Made by a program: the position numbers and the translations under genes. From contig JANXSX010000061.1 in assembly GCA_025356475.1 (NCBI GenBank), forward strand, positions 1-42,884: DNA of 42,884 nucleotides. The letters are read 5' to 3'. Source of the DNA: Isosphaeraceae bacterium. Its GTDB lineage: Bacteria; Planctomycetota; Planctomycetia; Isosphaerales; Isosphaeraceae. The notes beneath the pieces are model-generated. The model searched no databases. It was not told the origin of the DNA and worked only from the letters and a program-made list of their open reading frames with translations. This document shows, one piece after another, positions 18,807 to 34,632 of this stretch; position 1 is the first letter of the stretch; every line of letters starts with the position of its first letter.

Positions 18807-19286
18807 CTAATCGAGGCTGGTCGCCAGGTCATTCGCGAGTCGCTCGATCGCCTCACGCGTGAACTGGCACGTTGCGGCACTTCTTTTTCGAGTCGCCTCG
18901 TCAAAGGTTACGCGCGCGAGTCGAAGCGACGCATTTCGATCAACTTGAATCTCGTAGTAGGTACGCATGCTTTGACGCTCGCTCGGCGATTGACTGCGGA
19001 GTTGGGCCTGGCCAACCTCGGCATCCAGCTCCAGGACGACCAGCGGCTCCATCAAGTAGGTGAGTTTGGCAACCAGTCGGTCGGCCCAGCCCTTCAATTC
19101 CGCCTTAGTGAGAGGGGGGTGATCGAGCAGTCGATATTCCAGAGAGTCTAGCGCCAGCCCAACGGCTCCGCCGGTCGCGACATGGAGAGTGAGGTGACGA
19201 TTCTCGAAATCCGCACTAATTACGCATGCACTCGTATCGGTGTGAGCGTCAATTGCGGCGGCGATCTTTTGGGTCAGGGGGTTCAT
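18807..19286 (-). CDS. Uncharacterised protein nested in the end of spoVR
   Basis: A 159-residue soluble protein that I do not recognise. It has an N-terminal helix, a beta-rich middle ([13 protein letters not shown]), and a conserved-looking [22 protein letters not shown] segment that reads like part of a compact alpha/beta domain. A perfect TAGGAGGAGC ribosome site lies 8-9 bases before the ATG, inside the last codons of spoVR, so the 38-base overlap is real and translation is likely coupled. Its position after prkA, yeaH and spoVR suggests a partner in that stress system, which is an inference from context only. Confidence 0.72.
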
Positions 19287-20805
19287 GGCTTGCTCCTCCT
19301 AAAGGACGGATCGTGTGATCCGTGCCGTCGAATGATAAGAGTGTGCTCCGCCCATCCACGACCGTCTCAAGATGGACCGGTCTGGTCCAGAGGCGGTTCA
19401 AATGCCGCAACGTGTCCTGGGCATGGTCCAGTTTCAGGTCGAGCCCGAAATGATCGTGCCTCAGATACAATTCGCTGCGGTTACGATAATTCCCTTCAGT
19501 GACTCGGATAATCGGCTGGCCGAAGTTTGTCAACCCAAAAAGCAAACGCTCTTTGATTTGTTGGAATTGACGACTCTCGATCTCGTAGGTTTCCTGAGCA
19601 TCGTTATGTTTGAAGCTGAACATGTTGTGACGCTTGCAGAAGTCGGCAGTCAAAAATGTGTCGACGAACGTGATATCATTATGGATCTTACGAACTTCGA
19701 AGATCTTGGCTCGCCCCTTCCCCAGCTTGGTATCCCAGCGCCGTCGTTCCTCCGTATTCTCGCAGGCATCATACTCCGGGCCAAATTGGCCCTTATTCCA
19801 TCGATCTTCGATGTCGCGAAACAGCTCAATCCCGAGCTTGTAGGGGTTCAAGCTACCGGGAGACGTCGCCATCGTCCCGGAGTGATGGTCGGCGTAGTCC
19901 ACCACCTCGGACGCGTCAAGAATCCGGGTCGTCATCATGGTCGAGTGCCAGTAACTCGCCCAGCCCTCGTTCATGATCTTGGTCTGGCCTTGCGGAGTGA
20001 AGTAATAGGCCTCCTGGCGGACGATATCGAGTACGTCACGCTGCCAGGCGTTCAGCGGAGCGTTTTCGAGCAGGAAGAGCAGAACATCTCGTTCGGGGTT
20101 CTCGGGGAACTGCCGCGATTTTTGCTGTTCGGCTTCTTTCTTTTTTACTTGCTCCTTGAGGAAGCTGGGAGGATTCACATACGAATCCATATAATCCTTG
20201 CTTTGAAACTTGTGGACTCCGTTGTCAGCCTCGGAATCGCGTTCGAAGTTGTACCGGTCGGGGGTATCGCGTCTCTTGATGAACATCGAGTGGATATCGA
20301 TCAGGTTTTCGAGTGAGAGGCAACTATCGATAAAATCCTCGACAATTTCTTCGCCAAACCGCTCCATGTAAGAGCGGATGCGGTTGCCATGGTTGGCTGT
20401 CTCATCCATCATCTTGCGGTTAGTCTGGCTGAACCAATGGTTATTCTTGAAGAAGTCGTTATGACCATAAACGTGAGCCATCACCAATTTTTGATCGACT
20501 CGCATATTGCAGCGCAGCAGGTATGCGTAGCATGGGTCATTATTAATGACCATCTCGTAGATCTTTTGGAGACCGTACCGATAACCTTTTGAGAGTTGTT
20601 CATACTCCATACCGAATCGCCAGTGGGGGTATCGCGTGGGGAATCCACCGAGCGCGGCAATCTCGGACAGTTCGTCGTAGTCGAGCACTTCGAAAATCGT
20701 GTTGTAGAAGTCGAGCCCATACTCGAGCGCATAGCCTTCAATCTCGACCTGGAGTTCCCTCAGGTCAGCGGGCAAGTTATGCGAATTGACGAGATTAGCC
20801 ATCAC
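19249..20805 (-). CDS. spoVR: SpoVR family protein (YcgB-like)
   Basis: A 518-residue member of the SpoVR/YcgB family, close to the usual length of about 510. Early conserved segments are seen: [45 protein letters not shown], then [17 protein letters not shown] in the middle, which has His/Glu residues suited to metal binding. The family is named for a spore-cortex gene of Bacillus but is widespread in non-sporulating bacteria. There it travels with prkA and yeaH in a stress and stationary-phase module, which is the arrangement here. Its biochemical activity is unknown. It starts 41 bases after the yeaH-type stop. Confidence 0.95.
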
Positions 20806-20846
20806 GATCTGACCTCACCCTTGAGCTTCGATTGTTCGGTTTGCCC

Positions 20847-21950
20847 TTAACGTCCTCGCCCGAGAAATTCCTTGATGGAGTCGTAGATTCCCTCTTTGTT
20901 GCGAATCTCCGACAATGCGAGGTTCGGGACATTTTCAAAGGCTTCTTCAAGCTCCCGAAAGAACTCGCCGGAGCCGTAGGGGCTCTCGACCTGCCCGTAG
21001 CCGAACAGGTTCGACTTGGGGAGGATCTGGTCGCGTAACAGACTGATGCATTGGCGGTTATCTTCTCCCCAGTTGTCGCCGTCGCTGAAGTGGAGCACAT
21101 AAATGTTCCAGTCTGCCGGGGGATGATCGGCCTCAATGATCTTGTTGGCGAGGTTGTAGGCCGAGCTGATCCGGGTCCCGCCACTCTCGCGAGTGTGATA
21201 AAAGGTATGTTGATCAACTTCTTTGGCCACTGCATCGTGGATAATATATCGCGTCGTCACTCCGTCGTACTGGCTCCTCAACCAGGTGTCTATCCAAAAC
21301 GCTTCAATCCGTACAATCTCTTTTTGGTCGTCGGTCATGCTCCCCGAGACATCCATCAAGTAGAGGACCACGGCATTGGAATGGGGCAGGGCGATCGGAT
21401 TCCAGGACCGATAGAGCTTGTCCTCGCGAACGGGGATGACCAGCGGGTCGCGGGGGTTGTACGTGTTCGAGGCGATCTGCCGCTTGAGGGCTTTCTTGTA
21501 AGTTCGTTTGAAGTGCCGGAGACTTTCGGGACCTGTCTGACGGATACCCGTGTACTTATCCTTTTCCTCGATAATGTTCGCTCGTCCCTTGGGCTCGATC
21601 CTGGGCAGGGCGAGCCCCTCGCCGAGAATGGCGGCGAGTTCATCCATCGTCAGTTCGACTTCGAGGAGGTGTCGACCGGGCGAGTCGCCCGCTCCTTGGC
21701 CGGGCTCGCCATCGGCGGATCGTCCGATCGGCTGACCCACATCTCCTGGCCCTTGGCCGACCCCCCCGGAATTCTTGCTCCCATAACGGAACTCGGGTAT
21801 TTGAATCTGAGGAAGAGGGATCGACACCAGTTCGCCACCGGTCTTGCCAATCATCTCTCCATGCGTGATATATTTGCGCAGGTCTGCCTTGATCTTGCCG
21901 CGCACGATCTGCTTGAATCGGTTTGCATCCCGCTCGATTTTCCGGACCAC
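20847..21950 (-). CDS. yeaH: YeaH/YhbH family (DUF444) von Willebrand A-like protein
   Basis: A 367-residue DUF444 protein, a regular companion of Prk[16 protein letters not shown] and ITHGEMIGK begin the protein, a Gly/Pro/Gln-rich linker spans about 57-92, and a von Willebrand A-like domain carries the MIDAS motif DVSGSM at 200-205. [15 protein letters not shown] and HFSDGDNWG complete the metal site. The start was set at GTG 21950, with GAGG about 11 bases upstream, because the 45 residues before it lack similarity and begin with TTG without a ribosome site; the longer form to 22085 cannot be excluded. It is probably a scaffold or adaptor in PrkA signalling. Confidence 0.9.
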
Positions 21951-22235
21951 AGCACAAGGTCCTCGCCACTGGAGGTGTAGGAAATCACCGAGTGCGACCG
22001 ACGCTTCGCCCCCGAGCGCGGCAAAATATGCCCGCAGCCTGGGCGGTTCGATCCTCTCGGATGGCAAAGAACGGGAAGTCGGCAACGGAGGAAGAAGGAG
22101 TCAATCGAGAGGCAGGTGCAGACCTTATGGCGATGATGTGGGATTGACCCGATCGGCTCCGCCACGAGTCTGTTCATCCTGTCCAGCAAATTCTATACCG
22201 GCAGGTGGTCGTGCTCAAGGCCCGTTTCCTTCTGG

Positions 22236-22283
22236 AGTTGGGGACTGGCTCTTAGGGGGCACACACAGAGCCAATCCCCAATT
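22236..22283 (-). repeat. Hairpin in the prkA-yeaH intergenic region
   Basis: Two 17-base arms (AGTTGGGGACTGGCTCT and AGAGCCAATCCCCAATT) pair with one mismatch and one G-T wobble around a 14-base loop. It lies about 40 bases after the prkA stop in a 370-base gap before yeaH. There is no T-tract, so a role in mRNA processing or in setting the PrkA:YeaH ratio is more likely than full termination. The rest of the gap shows nothing. Confidence 0.55.
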
Positions 22284-22320
22284 CCAAGGCAAGGAAGAAC
22301 AGGGGGAGTTTTGAAATGGC

Positions 22321-24381
22321 CTAGTGGGTGCCGCGTTTCACGTCACCACGGGCGAAGATACTAGCGACATAGTTCAGCACGTCGGTTGCCGAATCTTCAT
22401 CGTAACCGTAGTTACGGATCAACCGGCCCTTGACGATATCGATCTTCTCCTGGGTGTCCTTATCGACAACACTCGACACGAGGCTTGTCAGCTTAATCGT
22501 ATCTTTCTGGTCCTGGAACAACTTGAGTTCAAGGGCCTTTTGCAATCGTTCATTCGTTCGATAATCGAACTTCTTGCCATCAAGTGACAAGGCACCGATG
22601 TAATTCATGATTTCGCGTCGGAAGTCGTCCTTTCGACTTTCGGGGATGTCGATCTTCTCTTCGATCGAGCGCATCAGGCGTTCATCGGGTTCCTCGGTCT
22701 GTCCTGTATACTTGTTCTTGACTTTCTCGCGCTGGGTGTAGGCCTTGACGTTATCGATGTAATTGCCGCAGAGCCGGGAGAGGGCCTCTTCGTCGGCGGC
22801 GATAGCGCGTTGGACCTCGTTCTTGACGATATCCTCATATTCCTCTTTAACGACCGAGAGCAAGTGCTTGTAGTGCTTCTTGACCTCGTCGTTATTGATC
22901 AGAGAATGATGCTTTAGACCCGCCTCAAGCTCATTTAAGACCATGAAGGGATTGACGGAACGCTCATCGGCGTGGGCGACCAAGGCGTTGCTGATCTTGT
23001 CCTGAACGTATCTCGGGCTGATCCCGTGCATCCCTTCGCGTTCGGCCTCCTCGCGAAGCTCCTTAATGTTGTCCTCGGTAAACCCGGGCAGGGTTTTACC
23101 GTTATAGAGTTTGAGCTTCTGGAGCAGTGTGAGCCCGGCGTTCTTGGGCTCTTCAAGCCTGGTCAAGACGGCCCACATCGCGGCGACCTCAAGCGTATGA
23201 GGTGCGATCTTCTTGCCGCGAACGCGCCGGCTGTTGTAATCCTTTTGATAGATATGAATTTCATCGGAGAGCTTGGTGACATACGGGACGTCGATCTTAA
23301 CCGTTCGGTCGCGAAGCGCTTCCATGAACTCATTCGACTGAAGCTTTTTGTACTCCGGTTCATTGGTATGACCGATGATGACTTCATCAATATCCGTTTG
23401 GGCAAACTTCTTCGGCTTGATCTTATGTTCTTGACTTGCCCCAAGCAAGTCGTAGAGGAAGGCGACATCGAGCTTCAGGACTTCGATGAACTCGATGATT
23501 CCCCGGTTGGCAATGTTGAATTCACCGTCGAAGTTGAAGGCTCGCGGGTCGCTCTCGGTGCCATACTCGGCGATCTTGCGGTAATTGATATCGCCGGTCA
23601 GCTCGGTTGCGTCCTGATTCTTCTCGTCCTTGGGCTGGAATGTGCCGATGCCAACGCGATCTTGTTCCGAGAGGATCAAGCGGCGAACGCGAATGTCCGC
23701 CAAGACCCGAGACCAGTCACCGTCTGTTCGGGCCATCCGCTCGTTGAACATCTGACGGCAATATGGGCACAGATCGCCCTCGATCGAAATCGGGTAGGCC
23801 CCTAATGAGATCTCAGTGTTGAGCTCGGCCAGAATATCGGTACGAAACTCTTCAGGGATCAGGTGCAGGGGGTCTTCATGCATGGGGCAATCGACCCAGA
23901 CGTCCTGCCCTTCGACCCCTTCCTCGCGCCAGCCATACGTGTAAAGTGCTCCATCATCAGTTCGCGAGTAATGCTCAAGTCCTTTCTTGAGCAGGCGAAC
24001 AATCGTGCTCTTGGAAGACCCGACCGGCCCATGGAGAAGCAGCACTCGACGTTCGGTTCCATATCGGTGGGCGGCACTCTTGAGCACATTGACAAGGTTC
24101 ATCAAGGTGCGATCGAGACCAAACACCGCGTCTTTGCCGCCATCGACCGGGTCGTCGAAGAACTTGTATTTGACGACCTTCTCTTTGTTGACCTCGATCT
24201 CATCGGTGCCGAATTCCAGGATCATGTCGTACAGCCGTTGGTAGGCGGTGCGGGTGACCTTGGGGTTGATATGGACGATGTCGATATAGTCGGCGAAGCC
24301 ACCGGTCCAGTGTTTCTTCTGGTAGTCGGCCAGATTCTGGCGGCGGGCAATCTGGGCGATCAAATCCAGTCCTGCAGACAT
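22321..24381 (-). CDS. prkA: PrkA family serine protein kinase
   Basis: A 686-residue PrkA/YeaG-type protein. It has an N-terminal AAA-like ATPase domain with Walker [10 protein letters not shown] (118-126) and a C-terminal kinase-like region. [37 protein letters not shown] (Cys pair) and [14 protein letters not shown] are strongly conserved. PrkA proteins are described as serine kinases, and some recent work treats them as AAA+ proteases; either way they act in starvation and stress responses. The start is the ATG at 24381 with AGGAGGG 10 bases upstream; the open frame further upstream is not coding. It heads the prkA, yeaH, spoVR block. Confidence 0.96.
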
Positions 24382-24884
24382 GGCGAATTCCCTCCTGATC
24401 GTTGACTTCGATGGGAGCGAGCGAGCGGATGCTCGCAGGGGATTCAGGCTCCGATTCCCCTTCGTTCCATCATCAAAGGGTATGCGAATCAAGTCGCGCC
24501 GACAGATTCATGAGTGTGGGGATACATGGCTCAGGCAACGGCGGGCGTGTGCGAGCAGCCACGCGGACCCTCACGATGAGGCTCGGCGAATTGTCAAAGG
24601 AGGACGGCTTCGTCGGTGACGAGTTCACTCATGATCGAGCGTCGCCCGGCGTGAATTTTCAGAAACGGTCGTTCGGGTCGCGGACAGTGCTATCCGAAGA
24701 GGTCAAGATCACCGAAATTGATGATCTGATGAAGGTTGAACGGGAGGAGGAAGTCCGACTCAATGCTCGGCTGGGCGAGTGCCTTCAGTGACTCATCTAT
24801 TGAATTAGAACCCCGGCGGCGCACGATTGTCAAGCGGACCAGATCGGTTGGTTTACGAAAGGTTCAACCGATCCGCGCAGCAAG
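24382..24884. other. Non-coding region upstream of prkA
   Basis: About 500 bases between prkA and the convergently oriented 3' end of the membrane protein gene. A 129-codon plus-strand open frame (24402-24791) shows no motif and is taken as chance. The prkA promoter should be here, but no clear consensus was found. One inverted repeat lies at its right end. Confidence 0.45.
24842..24873 (-). terminator. Inverted repeat downstream of the membrane protein gene
   Basis: Arms GATCGGTTG and CAACCGATC, 14 bases apart, begin 11 bases after the stop of the minus-strand membrane protein gene. No T-tract follows, so a terminator role is plausible but not clear. Confidence 0.4.
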
Positions 24885-27932: not shown

Positions 27933-30900
27933 TCAGCGACCACGCCTCGTGGGAGGAGCAGGGGCGGGGAGCACCCGCACCTCGTTGTTCGCAGCGTCAT
28001 AGCACTCGAACTGAAGGTGTTCGGCGGCGGCACCGTCCTCGGGGCGGACATGGATGGTCATGGTCCCCTCGGTCTCCAGCTTGGCGATCTCGAGACGCTT
28101 GCGGTTATTAAGATAGGTGGCGACCGGCACACTCACTGCGACGTTGATCCGGCGGACCTCCTCGCGGTGCGCGGCCAACGCCAAGAGACGCATGACGTCG
28201 ATCGACATGCTTTCGACCGTCTTGATCAGGCCTGCCCCGGTGCAGTTCGAGCAATCCTCGTACACTGAACGCTTGAGGCTGGGCCTGATCCGTTGGCGAG
28301 TCATCTCGATCAGACCAAATGCACTCATCCGGAGCACCTTGGTCCGAGCACGGTCGCGTTTAATGGCGTCGCGGAGGGCCTTTTCCACCCCTCGGCGATG
28401 CCTCTCTTCACGCATGTCGATGAAGTCATTGACGATCACGCCACCCATGTCACGCAAGCGCAATTGGCGAGCGATCTCCTTCGCAGCGCGAAGGTTCATC
28501 TCATAAGCCGTTCGTTCGGCATCGTTCTCGACCCGGAAGTTCCCCGAGTTGACGTCGATCGCCACCAAGGCTTCGGTCTGGTCGATGACGATCGATCCCC
28601 CCTCCGGCAGGGGAACATGCCGACGCTGGATCTTGGCGATCTCCTCTTCCAGGCCGTACTTGTGGAAGAGTGGCACCTTCTCGCTATACAGCTTGAGCCG
28701 GTTGACAAACCGAGGCATCACGACCCGAAGGAACTCCTGGGCACGCTCAAATGCTTGCGGCTCGTCGATCCAGATCGTGTCGATCTCAGCGTTGAAGATA
28801 TCGCGAATGGTACGCGTGATCATATCCGATTCTTGGTAGATCGGAGCTGGGCTACGCGACTTCTTGATCCTGCGGAGGATCACCTTCCAGAGTCGGAGCA
28901 GATAGGCCAAGTCGCGAGCGAGTTCGCCCTTGGTCCGATCCAGCCCCGCCGTGCGGACAATGAAGCCTAGACCCTTGGGCGGGTTGAGTTCGGTCATCAA
29001 CTCGCGGAGTTTGCGCCTTTGACCTTCGTCGGCGATCTTGCGTGAGACGCCAACCCGGTTTAGGCCTGGCATCAAGACAAGGTATCGTCCCGGGATACTA
29101 ATATAGGTCGAGAGTGTCGGACCTTTATTGCCGATTGCCTCTTTGATGACCTGGACAAGGACATCGTCCCCACGCCGGAAAATGTCCTGGAGCGGCGGCT
29201 TGGGTCCACCGCGACCACGGGCGGGTTCACCCCGACGCGGGCGAGCTTCCACTGGGCCACGCAGGCCCATCTCACGCTCGAGTTCGGCGATCTCCTCAGC
29301 CTCGCGACGGATCTCCTCTTCAAGTTCAGGATCGATCTCGTCGTCTGGGTTGGGAGGGCGAACCTCGTCATCGTCATCATCCTCGTCATCGAAATCGTCG
29401 TCATCGTCGTCGCTCAACCGACCTGTCGGCTCGTCGTCGAAGTCGAAGTCGTCGATCGGCTTGGAGGAAGCGGGCGATGGGGCCGGCGCACGACGGGGAG
29501 GGGGCTCGGGACGGCGGGCGGCGGGTGCCCGACGCGCTGGCTGCGGAGCCGGTGCCGGCTCGTCCTCTTCGTCGAGTTCGGGGAAGTCGAGATCGGCATC
29601 AAGGTCTGAGGTCGAACCGACTCCAGGCCCAGTGACATCACGCTCGCCCTTGCGGCGGCGGCGACCACGACCGCGTCGACGGCGACGACCTTCAGCCTTG
29701 GCTGCTTCTTCGGCGGGGGTCCCGATCACGTCGGAATCAAGGTCGAGGTCAGAATCAAGGTCGAGATCGGCGTCCGAATCGGACCAGTCGAGGCGGTCGT
29801 CCGGCTCAAACGAAGCTGGCTCGGGAGGACGACTTCGCTCACGCCTCGGAACGTAACCGGGCTCGCCGGCACGGGTATGCGGAACCTTGGGCCGATCCGG
29901 TGACCGAGGGGGTTCGATTGGCTCAGGAGCACGAGGCACAGGCCGGCCTCGCTCGCCACCACGAACTTGTTCGAGAGGCTCAGGAGTGCGGCCGGTAGCC
30001 TGACCCCGCTCACCACCGCGAACTTGTTCGAGAGGCTCGTGGGCACGAGCCGTTGGCCTAGGTCGTTCGCCACGCGACGGTTCGATCGGCTCGGGACGGG
30101 GACGCTCTCGGCGAGGATCGCGGTCGCGTGTAGGGGCGATCGGCTCGACCGTTTCCGAGGGGGGACGGAGCAGCGACTCGATCGGGGCCATCGATTCTTT
30201 GGGAACGGGACGGGGCCGTTCGGGACCGCGGTCTCCCCCTCGTGATCGGATCGCAGCCCGACCTGCCCGGGGCGGGGAGTCCTGGAGATCATCGACCTCG
30301 GGGACGCTTGACTGCAACGGCTCGTCGGTCTGTTCCTCTCGCGATTCCGCGGGAGAGGTCCGCGACCGACCTCGGGTTCCTCGTGGGCGACGATCCCGAG
30401 AGGAAGGTGATTCCGAGTCGAAGGCTTCGATTTCGTCACGAACCCGAGGCGAGCGGGGGCGGATCAGCTCTTCAATGTCGGGCTCGACGGCCCGAGCACG
30501 AGGAGGGGCTGCGGGCGGAGGAGGCGTCCTCTCCGGGGTCGTTGGGCGGGTGGTCCGTGCGGTCCGGCTCGGCGGAAGGTTGTCTTCCCAAGAATCGGCG
30601 GGAAGGTCGATCGCGGGAGGCAATGTTGCTGAAGGGGGCGTCGGTCGAGCGCTCGACCGAGGTCGGGGCGGCGGCTCGGGAGCACGGGGGGGCGGCTCAA
30701 GAGCACGTGATTCTCGAACGACACGTGAAGACCGGCTCGGGGGTAGGTCATCTTCCGCAGCGGATAAGCTCGGGGCCGGCGGAGGAACCGGAGCGACAGG
30801 TGTTCTCGACCGGGTCCGAGCGGGTGGCTCATCGTTCCAGGTAAACGGCTCTGGCGCGGGTTTGGTCCAGACCGGTGGTGCCTCTTCGACCACAACCGGG

Positions 30901-31763
30901 GGGGGTGGAAGTACGGGCGGAGCGACCGGAGCGGGGGGCGGTTCGACCTTCGCTTTGCTCTCCAACGGACGAGGCGCGGGAGGTACCTTCCAATCGTCGA
31001 TCAGGCCTTCGCCGAACCGACGATCACTCTGATCGCGACGGCCCTTCTCCGAGCGATCGGGTCGGTCCCGATCTCGATCCCTCGGCCTGGGTCGCTCATC
31101 GGGGTAGAGCGGGGGCAAACCCGCGCCGAACGTACTTCGATCTTCGATCACGGGCCGGGGCCGCTCGCGGTCCTGGGTCGGGCGAGGCCGCTCTTCCATC
31201 GGGCGAGGCCGATCCCGATCATGGACCGGGCGAGGCCGATCGCGGTCTTCCATGGGGCGAGGTCGATCCCGGTCTTCCACCGGCCTGGGTCGATCTCGGT
31301 CTTCCATGGGACGAGGCCGATCCCGGTCTTCTACCGGACGAGGCCGATCGCGATCTTCAATGGGTCTAGGTCGATCGCGGTCTTCTACCGGGCGAGGCCG
31401 ATCGCGGTCTTCGATGGGTCTGGGTCGATCACGATCGTCGGTGGGCCGAGGTCGATCGCGGTCGCTCGGTCGTCGCGGGTCTCGCGAGGAAGGGCTTGAG
31501 GGCTCGGATTCGCCTTGATGACGTTCGTAATACTGCGGCTCGACGTCGGAGACGTGCAAGAAGCCGTTACGGCCGACCGAGAAGTCGACAAACGCAGCCT
31601 GGATGGCTGGTTCGAGGTTCACGATCTTACCTTTGTAGATGTTGCCTGTGTAGCTTTCCAGGCTTGTTCGTTCGACGTAAAGCTCCTCAAGGATGCCGTC
31701 CTCGACAATTGCGATTCGGCATTCCTCGGGCTGGAGCACGTTGATCAGCATTTCTTTCTTCAT
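27933..31763 (-). CDS. rne: Rne/Rng family ribonuclease with large low-complexity insertion
   Basis: A 1276-residue endoribonuclease of the RNase E/G family, which processes rRNA and decays mRNA. Residues 1-80 are the first half of the S1 domain (MLINVLQPEECRIAIVEDG, NIYKGKIVNLEP, AFVDFSVGRNGFLH). Residues from about 856 resume the S1 domain and catalytic core: TYISIPGRYLVLMPG, the Mg-binding Asp1070 (AIDVNSGN) and Asp1113 (NDFIDM), and the Zn-link Cys1171-X2-Cys1174. The intervening roughly 770 residues are Arg/Pro/Asp/Glu-rich, with ten 9-residue repeats, a Pro-rich part and long Asp runs near 780-830. There is no C-terminal scaffold. The start at ATG 31763 follows the TIGR03936 gene by 19 bp; ATG three codons later is an alternative. 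Confidence 0.93.
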   Translation of the reverse strand: MKKEMLINVLQPEECRIAIVEDGILEELYVERTSLESYTGNIYKGKIVNLEPAIQAAFVDFSVGRNGFLHVSDVEPQYYERHQGESEPSSPSSRDPRRPSDRDRPRPTDDRDRPRPIEDRDRPRPVEDRDRPRPIEDRDRPRPVEDRDRPRPMEDRDRPRPVEDRDRPRPMEDRDRPRPVHDRDRPRPMEERPRPTQDRERPRPVIEDRSTFGAGLPPLYPDERPRPRDRDRDRPDRSEKGRRDQSDRRFGEGLIDDWKVPPAPRPLESKAKVEPPPAPVAPPVLPPPPVVVEEAPPVWTKPAPEPFTWNDEPPARTRSRTPVAPVPPPAPSLSAAEDDLPPSRSSRVVRESRALEPPPRAPEPPPRPRSSARPTPPSATLPPAIDLPADSWEDNLPPSRTARTTRPTTPERTPPPPAAPPRARAVEPDIEELIRPRSPRVRDEIEAFDSESPSSRDRRPRGTRGRSRTSPAESREEQTDEPLQSSVPEVDDLQDSPPRAGRAAIRSRGGDRGPERPRPVPKESMAPIESLLRPPSETVEPIAPTRDRDPRRERPRPEPIEPSRGERPRPTARAHEPLEQVRGGERGQATGRTPEPLEQVRGGERGRPVPRAPEPIEPPRSPDRPKVPHTRAGEPGYVPRRERSRPPEPASFEPDDRLDWSDSDADLDLDSDLDLDSDVIGTPAEEAAKAEGRRRRRGRGRRRRKGERDVTGPGVGSTSDLDADLDFPELDEEDEPAPAPQPARRAPAARRPEPPPRRAPAPSPASSKPIDDFDFDDEPTGRLSDDDDDDFDDEDDDDDEVRPPNPDDEIDPELEEEIRREAEEIAELEREMGLRGPVEARPRRGEPARGRGGPKPPLQDIFRRGDDVLVQVIKEAIGNKGPTLSTYISIPGRYLVLMPGLNRVGVSRKIADEGQRRKLRELMTELNPPKGLGFIVRTAGLDRTKGELARDLAYLLRLWKVILRRIKKSRSPAPIYQESDMITRTIRDIFNAEIDTIWIDEPQAFERAQEFLRVVMPRFVNRLKLYSEKVPLFHKYGLEEEIAKIQRRHVPLPEGGSIVIDQTEALVAIDVNSGNFRVENDAERTAYEMNLRAAKEIARQLRLRDMGGVIVNDFIDMREERHRRGVEKALRDAIKRDRARTKVLRMSAFGLIEMTRQRIRPSLKRSVYEDCSNCTGAGLIKTVESMSIDVMRLLALAAHREEVRRINVAVSVPVATYLNNRKRLEIAKLETEGTMTIHVRPEDGAAAEHLQFECYDAANNEVRVLPAPAPPTRRGR
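31194..31463 (-). repeat. Ten tandem 27-bp repeats inside the RNase E/G gene
   Basis: The frame reads ten consecutive 9-residue units of the form DRDRPRPxx, residues 101-190 of the RNase. The last two positions run TD, IE, VE, IE, VE, ME, VE, ME, VH, ME, so units alternate between a Val type and an Ile/Met type, a 54-bp higher-order pattern. Degenerate copies continue on both sides. There are no spacers, so this is not CRISPR. Confidence 0.92.
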
Positions 31764-31782: not shown

Positions 31783-32601
31783 TCAGAGAGGGCAATGAGC
31801 GTTGAGTTCTTGGCTTTCTGATCCGTCATCGAGCGATTCGTGCTCTTCGTCCAGACGATCGGTCGGCGCTGGGCTTATCGTCGTCTTGGAGGACGGCGGA
31901 GCCGGAGCGGGCGAGGGAGGCATAGGGGCGAGCTCGACGTCGGTCCGAATCAGTACAGCCCCAGTCTGGATCAGGTCGCGCAGGTCCAGGGCGTCGATGA
32001 CGTCCTCGGGCCGGGCCGACCCGTCCTGGGTCATTTTCAATCGAAAACTCAGCAAGCCGGAGGTGCCGTCAATTCGGCCCTCCAGCAGAAACGGTCGGAG
32101 GTCGTCCTCGGTCGCGCGCTCAGCCCGGCGGCGGAGGTACGGCCAGCGTTCGCTAGCCAGCAACCGCTCAAGACTGGCACTCGCCTCGGCCCGACGGTTA
32201 TCGGGAACTTGCAAGGCAAAACAGACAGTGGCCGCTTGGGCACTCTTTCGGGAATGGGCGGGCTCAGCTTCGAGCCATTCGAGACCTTCAGGACTCTCAG
32301 CAGCGAGCTTGGCCAGGAGAACCTCGGGCTCCATCGGCTCGGCCAACTCCATCTCAAGAACTTCGCGCTCTCCCTCGATTCCTAGGCCCAGAGCCAACGT
32401 AAAAACGATGCGCGGACGGGGGTTGAAGCCTTGGCTGTAAGCCATGGGGATCGAACCGCGCCGGGCCATCCGCTCCAGGCAGCGCATCAGGTCATGATGG
32501 CTAACGAGTCGCAGGTCACCACGCTTGGCGAACCGGAGTCGGACCTTGGTGCAAGCGGTCGTTGCAATCGGGGCGTTTGGAGATTCCGTAGGGGTCATCA
32601 C
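31783..32601 (-). CDS. TIGR03936 (DUF2344) radical SAM-associated protein
   Basis: A 272-residue protein of the family that normally sits beside, or is fused to, a B12-type radical SAM protein and precedes RNase G. The N-terminal half carries the hallmark KVRLRFAKRGDLRLVSHHDLMRCLERMARR and SQGFNPRPR, with FTLALGLGIEGE. The C-terminal 50 residues are Pro/Ser/Glu-rich and not conserved. Its place 19 bp before the RNase gene matches the family's known linkage, but the radical SAM partner is not adjacent here. The molecular function is unknown, probably linked to tRNA or rRNA modification. Two adjacent ATG codons could start it. Confidence 0.88.
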   Translation of the reverse strand: MMTPTESPNAPIATTACTKVRLRFAKRGDLRLVSHHDLMRCLERMARRGSIPMAYSQGFNPRPRIVFTLALGLGIEGEREVLEMELAEPMEPEVLLAKLAAESPEGLEWLEAEPAHSRKSAQAATVCFALQVPDNRRAEASASLERLLASERWPYLRRRAERATEDDLRPFLLEGRIDGTSGLLSFRLKMTQDGSARPEDVIDALDLRDLIQTGAVLIRTDVELAPMPPSPAPAPPSSKTTISPAPTDRLDEEHESLDDGSESQELNAHCPL

Positions 32602-32673
32602 AGCGTGGTCGTCATCTTCAGAAAGTGGTTCGGGGCAATAGGTTCGTCCAGTTTGCCGACGGATCTCAGGGCG

Positions 32674-34632
32674 TTACGCGCCGCTTGGGGTGTCGGGCAA
32701 ATTGGCGCGGAGTGTTCGATTTAGGACTTCAAGAACTCCGATGGAGGTATCACAGAGCAGGGCTTCGGCGGCGACCGCGACGGCAACTTCGGACCGAATG
32801 CCGCGGATCACCCGCTTGACCTCGGGAAGCTGGTGCGGGGCCATACTTAGGTTGCGCAGACCAAGACCCATCAGCAACATCGTGTAGACGGGGTCTCCCC
32901 CCATCGTACCGCAGACGCTCACAGGGATCCCTCGCGCCTCTCCGGCGGCAACGACCATGGCGATCAAACGCAACACAGCGGGGTCGGCCGCGCTGTAGAT
33001 GCCCGCAACGGTTTCGTCGGTTCGATCGACGGCGAGAGTGTACTGGGTCAGGTCATTGGTACCAATCGAGAAGAAATCTACCTCCTTGGCAAGCTGGTCG
33101 GCGATGATCGCAGCGGCTGGGACCTCAACCATGATACCAACGGAGGGGAGCGTCTTAGGCAACGCCACTCCCTCGGTCGCAAGTTCTGCAGCGACTTCGA
33201 TCAGCAAAGAACGGGCCTGACGAACCTCGGTCACAGTCGTTACGAGCGGGAACATGATCCGAACATCACCCAGAGTCGCCGCTCGGAGGATCGCACGCAA
33301 CTGGGTACGGAATAGGGCCGGCTCGCGTAGCGAGAGTCGTAAACTCCGTAAACCTAAAGCGGGATTAGGGTTACGTGTCAAGTCCGGCGAAGATTGGAAG
33401 AGGGCAATCTTATCGGCACCCAGATCCAAGGTCCGAATAATCACCGGGCGACCGGCCATTGAGCGGACAACAGCCTCGTACGCAGCGAACTGTTCGTCTT
33501 CCGTGGGGGGATGTTCGCTATTCAAGTAGAGGAAATCGGTCCGATAGAGCCCGACTCCCTCTGCGCCTCGTTCGAGGCAAACGGTCACTTCGTCGGCGAA
33601 CTCAATGTTGCCCCAGAGGTGGACCGCGAGCCCGTCGAGTGTCACTGCCGGGAGCGGGGCCAAACGTGACAGCCGTTCGAATCGCAAGGCCCGCTCTGCG
33701 GCCAGCCCTCGGTAACGGGTCAGAGTCGGCGGGTCGGGGTCGAGAATCACGATCCCCTGATGGCCGTCGATGATCACTTCGCGGCAGTCTCGAGCCAGGT
33801 CGAGGAACTTACCAAGTCCCACAACGGCGGGGATCTCCAGGGCTTCCGCGACGATCGCCGTATGGCTGGCTCGTCCGCCAGTCTCGGTGGCAAAACCAAG
33901 GACCAAGCTCGGGTTAAGCCCCGCAGTCTCACTCGGTGAGAGGTCCGGCGCGAGGACCACGCATTGGCCTTTCAAATCCGACAGTGTTGAGCTGGGAGCA
34001 TCGCCGGCAAGTTCGACCAAAATCCTGTGGAGAATATCGCGGACATCGGCAGCTCGTGCCGCGAGGTGGGAATCGGCGATCGCTTCCAGCTTGTTCGCAT
34101 GCCGTTCAAGAACCTCAAGAACCGCGTGTTCGGCGGCGAGGTGATCTCGTTCGATCTTCGAGGAGGCATCGCGAAGCAGAGTCGGGTCGGCGATCATCTG
34201 GGCGTGGGCCCCGAGAATGTCGGCGTACTGAGGACCGAGCTTGGATCGTGCTTCGTTTTCGGCGGCTTGGGCATCGCGATAGGCAGCCGTCAGACCGACC
34301 TTGAGTCGCACGAGTTCTGCGGGAACGATGGCGGGATCGATCGACCGCTGGGGGAGCCTGGGTCCGCGCGGGTAGATCACCAGGGCGGGTGCAATGGCGA
34401 TACCAGGGCTGACGGCAATCCCACGGAGGATCTGCATGATTGCTCTGGCCGTCGGTTCGGATCCTCGTCCCTGATCACGATTCCGCTCAATAGGGGGCTG
34501 GGACATCTGCACCGGGACTTCCAGAGGGCGAGCGTCGCGACTTCGGCGGCTCAACCTGGTCTTGGTTGGCGGGCGGTGCGGGTCTCGTTCTGGGTCCGGG
34601 TCTCCCGGCGAAATCACCCTCCGAGCGGTCAT
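32674..34632 (-). CDS. ptsI: PTS enzyme I (phosphoenolpyruvate-protein phosphotransferase)
   Basis: Takes phosphate from phosphoenolpyruvate onto a His and passes it to HPr. The frame gives 652 residues; the conserved enzyme starts at about residue 66 (MQILRGIAVSPGIA), giving a normal core of 587. The active His is 257 (192 of the core) in GGRASHTAIVAE. GVGLYRTDFLYL, the PEP-binding LDLGADK, and FFSIGTNDLTQY and VSVCGTMGGDP (domain with the catalytic Cys) are present. The chosen ATG overlaps the ptsH stop as ATGA; this gives a 65-residue Arg/Pro-rich extension. ATG 34437 is the alternative, without that extension. No sugar permease is in the window, so a regulatory PTS is likely. Confidence 0.94.
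   Translation of the reverse strand: MTARRVISPGDPDPERDPHRPPTKTRLSRRSRDARPLEVPVQMSQPPIERNRDQGRGSEPTARAIMQILRGIAVSPGIAIAPALVIYPRGPRLPQRSIDPAIVPAELVRLKVGLTAAYRDAQAAENEARSKLGPQYADILGAHAQMIADPTLLRDASSKIERDHLAAEHAVLEVLERHANKLEAIADSHLAARAADVRDILHRILVELAGDAPSSTLSDLKGQCVVLAPDLSPSETAGLNPSLVLGFATETGGRASHTAIVAEALEIPAVVGLGKFLDLARDCREVIIDGHQGIVILDPDPPTLTRYRGLAAERALRFERLSRLAPLPAVTLDGLAVHLWGNIEFADEVTVCLERGAEGVGLYRTDFLYLNSEHPPTEDEQFAAYEAVVRSMAGRPVIIRTLDLGADKIALFQSSPDLTRNPNPALGLRSLRLSLREPALFRTQLRAILRAATLGDVRIMFPLVTTVTEVRQARSLLIEVAAELATEGVALPKTLPSVGIMVEVPAAAIIADQLAKEVDFFSIGTNDLTQYTLAVDRTDETVAGIYSAADPAVLRLIAMVVAAGEARGIPVSVCGTMGGDPVYTMLLMGLGLRNLSMAPHQLPEVKRVIRGIRSEVAVAVAAEALLCDTSIGVLEVLNRTLRANLPDTPSGA

Follow-up and report, generated by a model that had tools for sequence, protein, structure and literature searches.

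RNase E organises messenger RNA decay through a disordered scaffold that is best known as a C-terminal tail, and the locus described here raises the question of where else such a scaffold can sit. The locus lies in a stretch of 42,884 nucleotides (hereafter the window: contig JANXSX010000061.1, positions 1 to 42,884 of the forward strand, from the Isosphaeraceae bacterium assembly GCA_025356475.1, phylum Planctomycetota), in which an RNase E/G gene encodes a protein whose S1 domain is interrupted by 770 residues. Our preferred reading, to which we give a probability of about 0.57, is that this protein, an endoribonuclease of the RNase E type, carries its degradosome-like scaffold inside S1, as a loop of 770 residues, and not as a C-terminal tail. 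The reading builds on the place of the loop, an S1 domain that is modelled closed, a complete set of catalytic and sensor residues, retention of the insert throughout the family and conserved islands amid freely changing low-complexity spacers.

The frame 27933-31763 on the reverse strand is open with no internal stop codon. At its longest, from a start at 31829, it would overlap the DUF2344 gene; the start chosen here, 31763, agrees with the MKKEMLIN start seen in relatives. The protein scored 469.1 bits against TIGR00757, the Rne/Rng model of the RNase E/G family, which is above the curated cut-off of 325.95, and 338.4 bits against PF10150; this RNase E/G match was unique in a PF10150 search of the 5.92 Mb genome assembly. 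Scores against the NCBIfam equivalog models stayed below the cut-off for both RNase E (NF008074, 425.6 versus 908) and RNase G (NF008689, 401.5 versus 594). At the three codon positions, the guanine plus cytosine (GC) fraction of the insert is 0.81/0.61/0.60, a pattern that matches what an Arg/Pro-rich make-up would give, and those of the flanks are 0.59/0.28/0.72 and 0.63/0.41/0.74. Because GC differs between insert and flanks we rested the reading frame on the protein-level islands described below. Relatives keep these islands in the same frame, and a wrong reading frame was therefore rejected.

Alignment with E. coli RNase E (2vmk) by phmmer paired residues 3-81 with E. coli residues 2-80 and residues 852-1233 with 84-466. 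Inside the S1 barrel, 770 residues (82-851) thus replace three E. coli residues (81-83), and the existence of an insert interrupting S1, first noticed in a preliminary description made from the sequence alone, is confirmed. The same description had equated Asp1070 and Asp1113, which are 43 residues apart, with the catalytic Asp303 and Asp346 of E. coli. Both are invariant in 81/81 aligned sequences (rows), chosen from 150 distinct ones, as are F58, K880, G892, V896, R937, T938, N1072, C1171 and C1174. The E. coli counterparts of the whole series are F57, K112, G124, V128, R169, T170, D303, N305, D346 and the zinc motif, and residues of E. coli for catalysis, 5'-end sensing and zinc are tabulated in PMC10126417. 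The full set is present in our protein: the catalytic Asp pair with its Asn, the CxxC of the Zn-link, the Arg-Thr of the 5'-sensor and the Phe and Lys of S1. The lack of a C-terminal scaffold, also claimed earlier, holds as well. The last Pfam domain covers residues 1171-1252 and is followed by 24 residues, which leaves no long non-catalytic C-terminal region, and in 19/19 rows of the own family the tail past the small domain measures 18-51 residues.

Structure prediction, which the preliminary description had proposed as a check, shows the S1 fold closing around the loop. In an AlphaFold2 model of residues 1-1195, built on the 81-row alignment, the two S1 halves form one barrel, to which E. 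coli S1 (1smx_B) aligned over 81/81 residues with a root-mean-square deviation (rmsd) of 2.0 and a Z of 13.5, the match spanning model residues 40-893 (VIA-align). The predicted local distance difference test (pLDDT) score is 72-97 by block across nearly all folded parts and below 50 across most of 89-796, a value that signifies the absence of confident structure but does not prove disorder. With that proviso the insert can be called disordered over most of 89-796, as the preliminary description had it; the description does not extend to the other islands or to residues 812-832, the sole confident helix of the insert (pLDDT 94-95 in blocks 811-830). This helix is kept in 18/18 aligned rows of the own family, and its hydrophobic moment was reached by 0.25% of shuffles. 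S1 closes likewise in a second model, that of a Gemmataceae-like relative (L080), over the range 40-560 and with low confidence in between. That model has a helix of its own near the end of the insert (438-454, block pLDDT up to 91). The two helices are unlike in sequence, the hidden Markov model (HMM) of island I6, which contains helix 812-832, reaching the 1% line in 0/12 same-class inserts outside the family. Residue 853 falls opposite position 162 of the 4oxp chain (Caulobacter), which matched our model over 186 residues (Z 18.6, rmsd 4.0) at a level where the insert residues concerned are not resolvable. Pfam and NCBIfam scans of the insert gave 0 family matches at E up to 1 and a PDB sequence search gave no domain either. 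Together with the lack of confident AlphaFold2 structure in 89-796 this led us to reject a folded known domain in the insert.

To follow the insert through relatives we used the anchor distance from the F of the GFL motif to the G of the RRGDEVLVQV motif, which is 797 here versus about 30 in E. coli. The sample comprised 161 rows (81 + 80), of which seven were unmeasurable (L062, L102, L125, L135, L140, L142 and L158). The 154 measured rows gave 150 distinct cores once the identical-core duplicates L145, L170, L200 and L211 had been left out; six of the 150 are cut at the contig start and four at the contig end. In the own GTDB family a match was found in 20/24 genomes, the four genomes without one being at most 85% complete. 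Eighteen of these matches were fetched whole (G006 and G016, cut by contig ends, were dropped), and L062 was removed from the count since its gene lies in two frames. The split match of L062 (G003:C244) is due to a frameshift or a sequencing error. The 17 remaining family loci, the present protein and L141 make up the 19 measurable rows, 18 of which carry the present GTDB family code, L141 being placed in the same tree clade. All 19 have anchor distances of 567-957 (median 637), so the alignment of planctomycete relatives called for earlier bears out the insert throughout the family. In L069, L075, L076, L078 and L066, whose assemblies have one to five contigs, distances of 569-957 occur as well, on which ground an assembly artefact was rejected.

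Within the insert, the own-family alignment (18 rows) shows islands separated by poorly aligning spacers. Island HMMs were built from nine own-family rows and searched against the other nine and 840 shuffled inserts; as in our other shuffle controls, shuffling preserved composition and not repeats. The islands had been picked on the alignment of all 18 rows, test rows included, so that their choice was not blind. The recovery of each island is given in Table 1. Outside the family, the HMMs of I1-I4 and I6 reached the 1% line in 0 of 12 same-class and 11 other inserts, and that of the arginine cluster I5 in 6/23 inserts. Arg/Lys clusters are present in other planctomycete extensions too, and I5 is a candidate RNA or PNPase site. 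A further conserved segment, I7 (848-862), was found in 13/13 same-class inserts; it is the edge of the S1 fold and was excluded from the insert motifs.

One short motif reaches beyond the family. Island I1 ends in FGEGL and a further FGAGL stands at F212, both fitting the strict pattern F-[GAS]-x-G-[LIF], which is mostly followed by Asp or Glu. The pattern (FGxGL hereafter) was observed 28 times in the 19 own-family inserts versus 0.38 expected, and 22 times in 12 other same-class inserts versus 0.24 expected. It is carried by 27 of the 32 large inserts of a class-level clade described below, in three families, and by 28/32 under a looser pattern. The strict motif is missing from L143, L144, L167 and L169 of this clade, and from L182 (core identity <60%), which has the looser forms FNSGL and FTAGL. 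None of the 47 short-insert rows of the clade has the motif in its N-terminal, loop or tail parts, and the looser pattern occurs in the catalytic core of 2/150 rows. The idea that FGxGL marks planctomycete RNase E extensions in general was rejected, the strict pattern being found in 0/11 large inserts with core identity <60%; it was also found in 0/20 N-terminal and 0/28 C-terminal extensions. A long N-terminal extension in L113 and its duplicate L200 has FGFGL (FGFGLFEE) close to its beginning, before the first ATG, and this occurrence escaped the strict count, which took the first ATG as its starting point. Here a distant planctomycete may have this same partner motif in a different place.

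The insert consists of 20% Pro, 18% Arg, 12% Asp and 11% Glu, with a mean hydropathy of 0.325, well below the charge-hydropathy boundary of 0.425, and a slightly acidic net charge of -0.03 per residue. Tandem repeats are restricted to parts of it and differ among relatives. The region of DRDRPRP-type repeats is poorly occupied in the own-family alignment, and the insert of L066 has different repeats in a different place. The Arg/Pro repeats stressed in the preliminary description thus belong to a poorly aligned spacer. In the repeat part 82-231 the charges are well mixed (charge-segregation z -2.7), and z is 3.6 for the whole insert. Charge blocks in a disordered region, a feature of RNase E proteins that form BR-body condensates, were found at 690-800 (z 8.8), where the arginine cluster is followed by Asp-rich runs.

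The 19 family rows belong to a class-level clade of 79 rows in a FastTree phylogeny that has long branches and in which the order of class-level clades is unsettled. Anchor distances in this clade are at least 200 in 32 rows (236-957) and 38-103 in 47 rows. The 32 large-insert rows fall into three groups, namely the own family (19), Gemmataceae-like rows (10) and a third group (3), and none of them has an N-terminal extension of at least 150 residues or a C-terminal one of at least 100, although a longer tail is possible in L167 and L182, whose genes run into a contig end. For N-terminal extensions the first ATG was taken as the start, which may be wrong. Ten more rows with large inserts occur at four tree places outside the clade, five also with C-terminal and two with N-terminal extensions. 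Among rows with both, a planctomycete family (L107, L108 and L110-L112) combines an S1 insert (anchor distance 253-310) with a C-terminal extension that measures 233-366 residues and, in those examined, has a Lys/Ala-rich end. Placed on the tree, the large-insert label requires at least six changes (five on starred branches only) versus a shuffled mean of 36.8, gain and loss being indistinguishable. A 16-row clade, nine rows of which are titled Phycisphaer-, has distances of 39-41 and C-terminal extensions of 162-540 residues, and six of its rows have N-terminal extensions of at least 150. L172 and L205, both titled 'Singulisphaera sp. GP187', are placed by the tree among Gemmataceae-like and Phycisphaerae-like rows, at odds with these MAG titles.

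We then sorted 146 rows (the 150 minus four Desulfuromonad rows, with L199, titled Nitrospinota, retained) by the place of their long extension. It is in the S1 loop only in 35, in S1 and the C-terminus in five and in S1 and the N-terminus in two. Of the 104 planctomycete-set rows without a large loop, 31 have long terminal extensions instead, at the C-terminus only in 13, the N-terminus only in 12 and both in six, and 73 have none. Where present, long extensions are thus placed differently by lineage, as an N-terminal region, an S1 loop or a C-terminal region, which suggests that scaffolds can change position during evolution.

What might the loop do? In the preferred reading of an S1-housed scaffold, the islands FGxGL, LPPSRT, GRAAIRSRGG and RAGEPGYVPRRER would dock partner proteins, by analogy with motifs of the Pseudomonas C-terminal scaffold. 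The arginine cluster and Arg-rich stretches would hold RNA, and the charge blocks may promote condensation, as has been proposed for Caulobacter. The acidic helix by the re-entry point could touch or gate the RNA channel of S1 and the 5'-sensor, like the Caulobacter S1-insert helix, which touches that channel in a crystal-based model (4OXP). Both ends of the loop emerge from the S1 barrel, which would keep the scaffold, together with whatever RNA or partner it binds, at the active-site entrance. Matches to PNPase, RNase Y and DEAD-box proteins are present in the genome, so candidate partners exist. The scaffold role already suggested by the preliminary description is in this way partly supported: it is favoured by islands between variable spacers, by the charge blocks and by comparable N- and C-terminal regions, and the attribution of scaffold and condensate function would follow by analogy. 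Several points weigh against it. Partner binding, RNA binding and condensation are predictions only, and no island is identical to a published partner-binding sequence, arginine richness aside. FGxGL is absent from the PNPase, the RNase Y and four examined of 19 DEAD-type matches of the genome (two of these four frames, L231 and L232, are cut by locus ends), a result that neither supports nor excludes partnership. As 73/146 rows lack any long extension, such a scaffold is not needed phylum-wide. On the structural side, Foldseek on its own aligned 39 columns of E. coli S1. The model of the whole catalytic domain fitted 2vmk with an rmsd of 4.3 over 389 residues and the L080 model with 14.9 over 455 residues; the looser 2vmk fit leaves the domain arrangement unsettled.

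Three other explanations were considered. The loop could be a gate or autoinhibitor, its acidic helix and acidic runs competing with RNA at the S1/5'-sensor cleft and tuning substrate access. The helix of the Caulobacter S1 insert sits in the place of RNA and acidic RNA mimicry has been proposed for it, and deletion of the Arabidopsis insert lowers activity (both PMC4245959). In our family helix 812-832 is found in 18/18 aligned rows, and L080 has a helix near its insert end, though of different sequence. A gate would need tens of residues, however, and not 770, it leaves islands I1-I4 and FGxGL, distant from the barrel, unexplained, and the placement of the helix in the cleft is predicted only; we consider this explanation a real competitor but one with the odds against it. 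An unlikely one is an RNA-binding tentacle, whose Arg/Pro and Arg/Asp stretches would keep RNA close to S1 and recruit no proteins. It would account for the arginine content of the insert (18%) and for its cluster at 690-708, and in Pseudomonas RNA is bound by RE(E/D)R repeats and by arginine-rich motifs (PMC11964227), but FGxGL, LPPSRT and GEPGYVP are, in our judgement, unlike RNA-binding motifs and the insert is slightly acidic overall. Growth of a surface loop through repeat slippage, mostly neutral, without function and tolerated as S1 folds regardless, appears very improbable to us. The lineage-specific tandem repeats, the length range of 567-957 inside one family, the poorly aligning spacers and the half of the phylum's rows without a long extension are what it would give; the recovery of islands in 9/9 held-out relatives, the roughly 70-fold excess of FGxGL above shuffles and the retention of the insert in 19/19 measurable own-family rows are not.

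A bolder version of the scaffold reading can also be formulated. In three planctomycete families the scaffold would lie inside the substrate-binding domain, partner docking or condensation would be mechanically coupled, by way of the acidic helix at the loop's exit, to RNA channel opening, the scaffold would be a module able to move among the N-terminus, the S1 loop and the C-terminus and kept by motif selection, and FGxGL would mark a planctomycete-specific degradosome partner. Taken together these propositions are speculative and rather doubtful.

Table 1. Coordinates of the RNase E/G gene, its parts and its upstream neighbour in the window.
Feature	Residues	Position	Strand	Evidence
RNase E/G gene (P0001), 1276 residues		27933..31763	-	TIGR00757, PF10150
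N-terminal strands and first half of S1	1-81	31521..31763	-	phmmer to E. coli RNase E 2-80; block pLDDT 81-97
Insert in S1	82-851	29211..31520	-	phmmer boundaries, composition, low hydropathy, pLDDT
Tandem repeat, DRDRPRP-type units, 11.8 copies of 27 bp		31151..31463	-	Tandem Repeats Finder
Island I1 (RPDRSEKGRRD..RRFGEGL), FGEGL at F250	232-256	30996..31070	-	held-out 9/9 above all shuffles
Island I2 (LPPSRT)	394-406	30546..30584	-	held-out 9/9 above all shuffles; 17/18 above 1% line overall
Island I3 (GRAAIRSRGG)	500-514	30222..30266	-	held-out 9/9 above all shuffles
Island I4 (RAGEPGYVPRRER)	626-644	29832..29888	-	held-out 9/9 above all shuffles
Island I5, arginine cluster	690-708	29640..29696	-	held-out 7/9 above 1% line, 6/9 above all shuffles
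Positive and negative charge blocks	690-800	29364..29696	-	charge-segregation z 8.8 versus shuffles
Island I6 (IDPELEEEIRREIEEIAELEREMGLRGP), acidic amphipathic helix 812-832	806-836	29256..29348	-	held-out 9/9 above all shuffles
Second half of S1, 5'-sensor, RNase H-like and DNase I-like parts, Zn-link, small thioredoxin-like domain	852-1276	27936..29210	-	
Catalytic Asp1070 codon (E. coli Asp303)	1070	28554..28556	-	invariant in 81/81 aligned rows
Catalytic Asp1113 codon (E. coli Asp346)	1113	28425..28427	-	invariant in 81/81 aligned rows
Upstream neighbour, DUF2344 / TIGR03936 radical-SAM-associated protein		31783..32601	-	Pfam, NCBIfam

Directly upstream of the RNase gene stand the DUF2344/TIGR03936 gene and a PTS enzyme I gene (31783-34632, reverse strand). 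The former was found within the fetched stretch of 18/19 family loci and ptsI in those of 12/19. Elsewhere in the window, Pfam matches identify a SpoVR-like gene (19249-20805) and a PrkA-type kinase gene (22321-24492), both on the reverse strand, around an unscanned open reading frame (20847-22085); 19249-24492 is probably a prkA-spoVR cluster. In one sampled genome two equal-scoring RNase E/G matches near both contig ends (G280:C1:2743-3552 and 3449467-3450276) probably stem from a circular chromosome whose overlapping ends were left uncut.

The 2011 review PMC3071783 lists in its Table 2 planctomycete RNase E/G proteins of 509-588 residues and rates them, by size, as without potential for a degradosome-like complex; the proteins found here do not fit that row. 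In the open-licence literature on planctomycete RNase E, no paper on scaffolds was found among the matches listed. With 32 rows of one class-level group having inserts of about 200-930 residues in an RNA-binding domain, and with motifs that are usable as bait, it becomes possible to test directly if planctomycetes possess a degradosome and if a scaffold can do its work from any point of attachment.

The position of the insert alone is not new. S1 inserts of about 50-150 residues at a consistent place are described for alpha-proteobacterial and plant RNase E in PMC4245959. Outside Planctomycetota we measured four alpha-proteobacterial loci (L239-L242) and a few other rows; the four loci have anchor distances of 83-185 and the same flanking motifs as the present protein. 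The Caulobacter crescentus insert (4OXP) occupies the same place in S1, is charged and mostly predicted to be disordered, and contains a helix that protrudes into the predicted RNA site, where its acidic residues are proposed to act as an RNA mimic. According to the same paper, RhlB is bound by a Caulobacter fragment (1-274) that comprises S1 with its insert as well as the 5'-sensor, and removal of the S1 insert reduces the activity of Arabidopsis RNase E. Our protein differs in the size of its insert (770 residues versus the published 50-150) and in having no counterpart of the long C-terminal region, ending near GWW, of the four alpha-proteobacterial loci. The plant chloroplast enzyme, which we liken to it by published description only, has its insert in the same domain and in the same 50-150 range. 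As far as our searches reach, what is new is the size of the insert, its islands, the absence of another scaffold and the lineage-varying place of the extension.

In make-up the insert resembles the C-terminal degradosome scaffolds of E. coli, Pseudomonas and Caulobacter, in which arginine clusters and charge blocks likewise accompany short conserved motifs in a long disordered region. Arginine-rich short motifs of Pseudomonas RNase E bind RNA and RhlB, its RE(E/D)R repeats bind RNA, and the sequence RRRRRRSSA mediates the binding of cyanobacterial PNPase (PMC11964227), while charge blocks are proposed to drive the condensates of Caulobacter RNase E (PMC10412687). Those scaffolds, however, are tails with different motif sequences, whereas the region described here is a loop of S1. 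Streptomyces RNase ES, which has a scaffold region at each end (PMC10126417), shows that the scaffold can shift relative to the catalytic domain; its scaffold lies outside that domain, whereas the one proposed here would lie inside S1.

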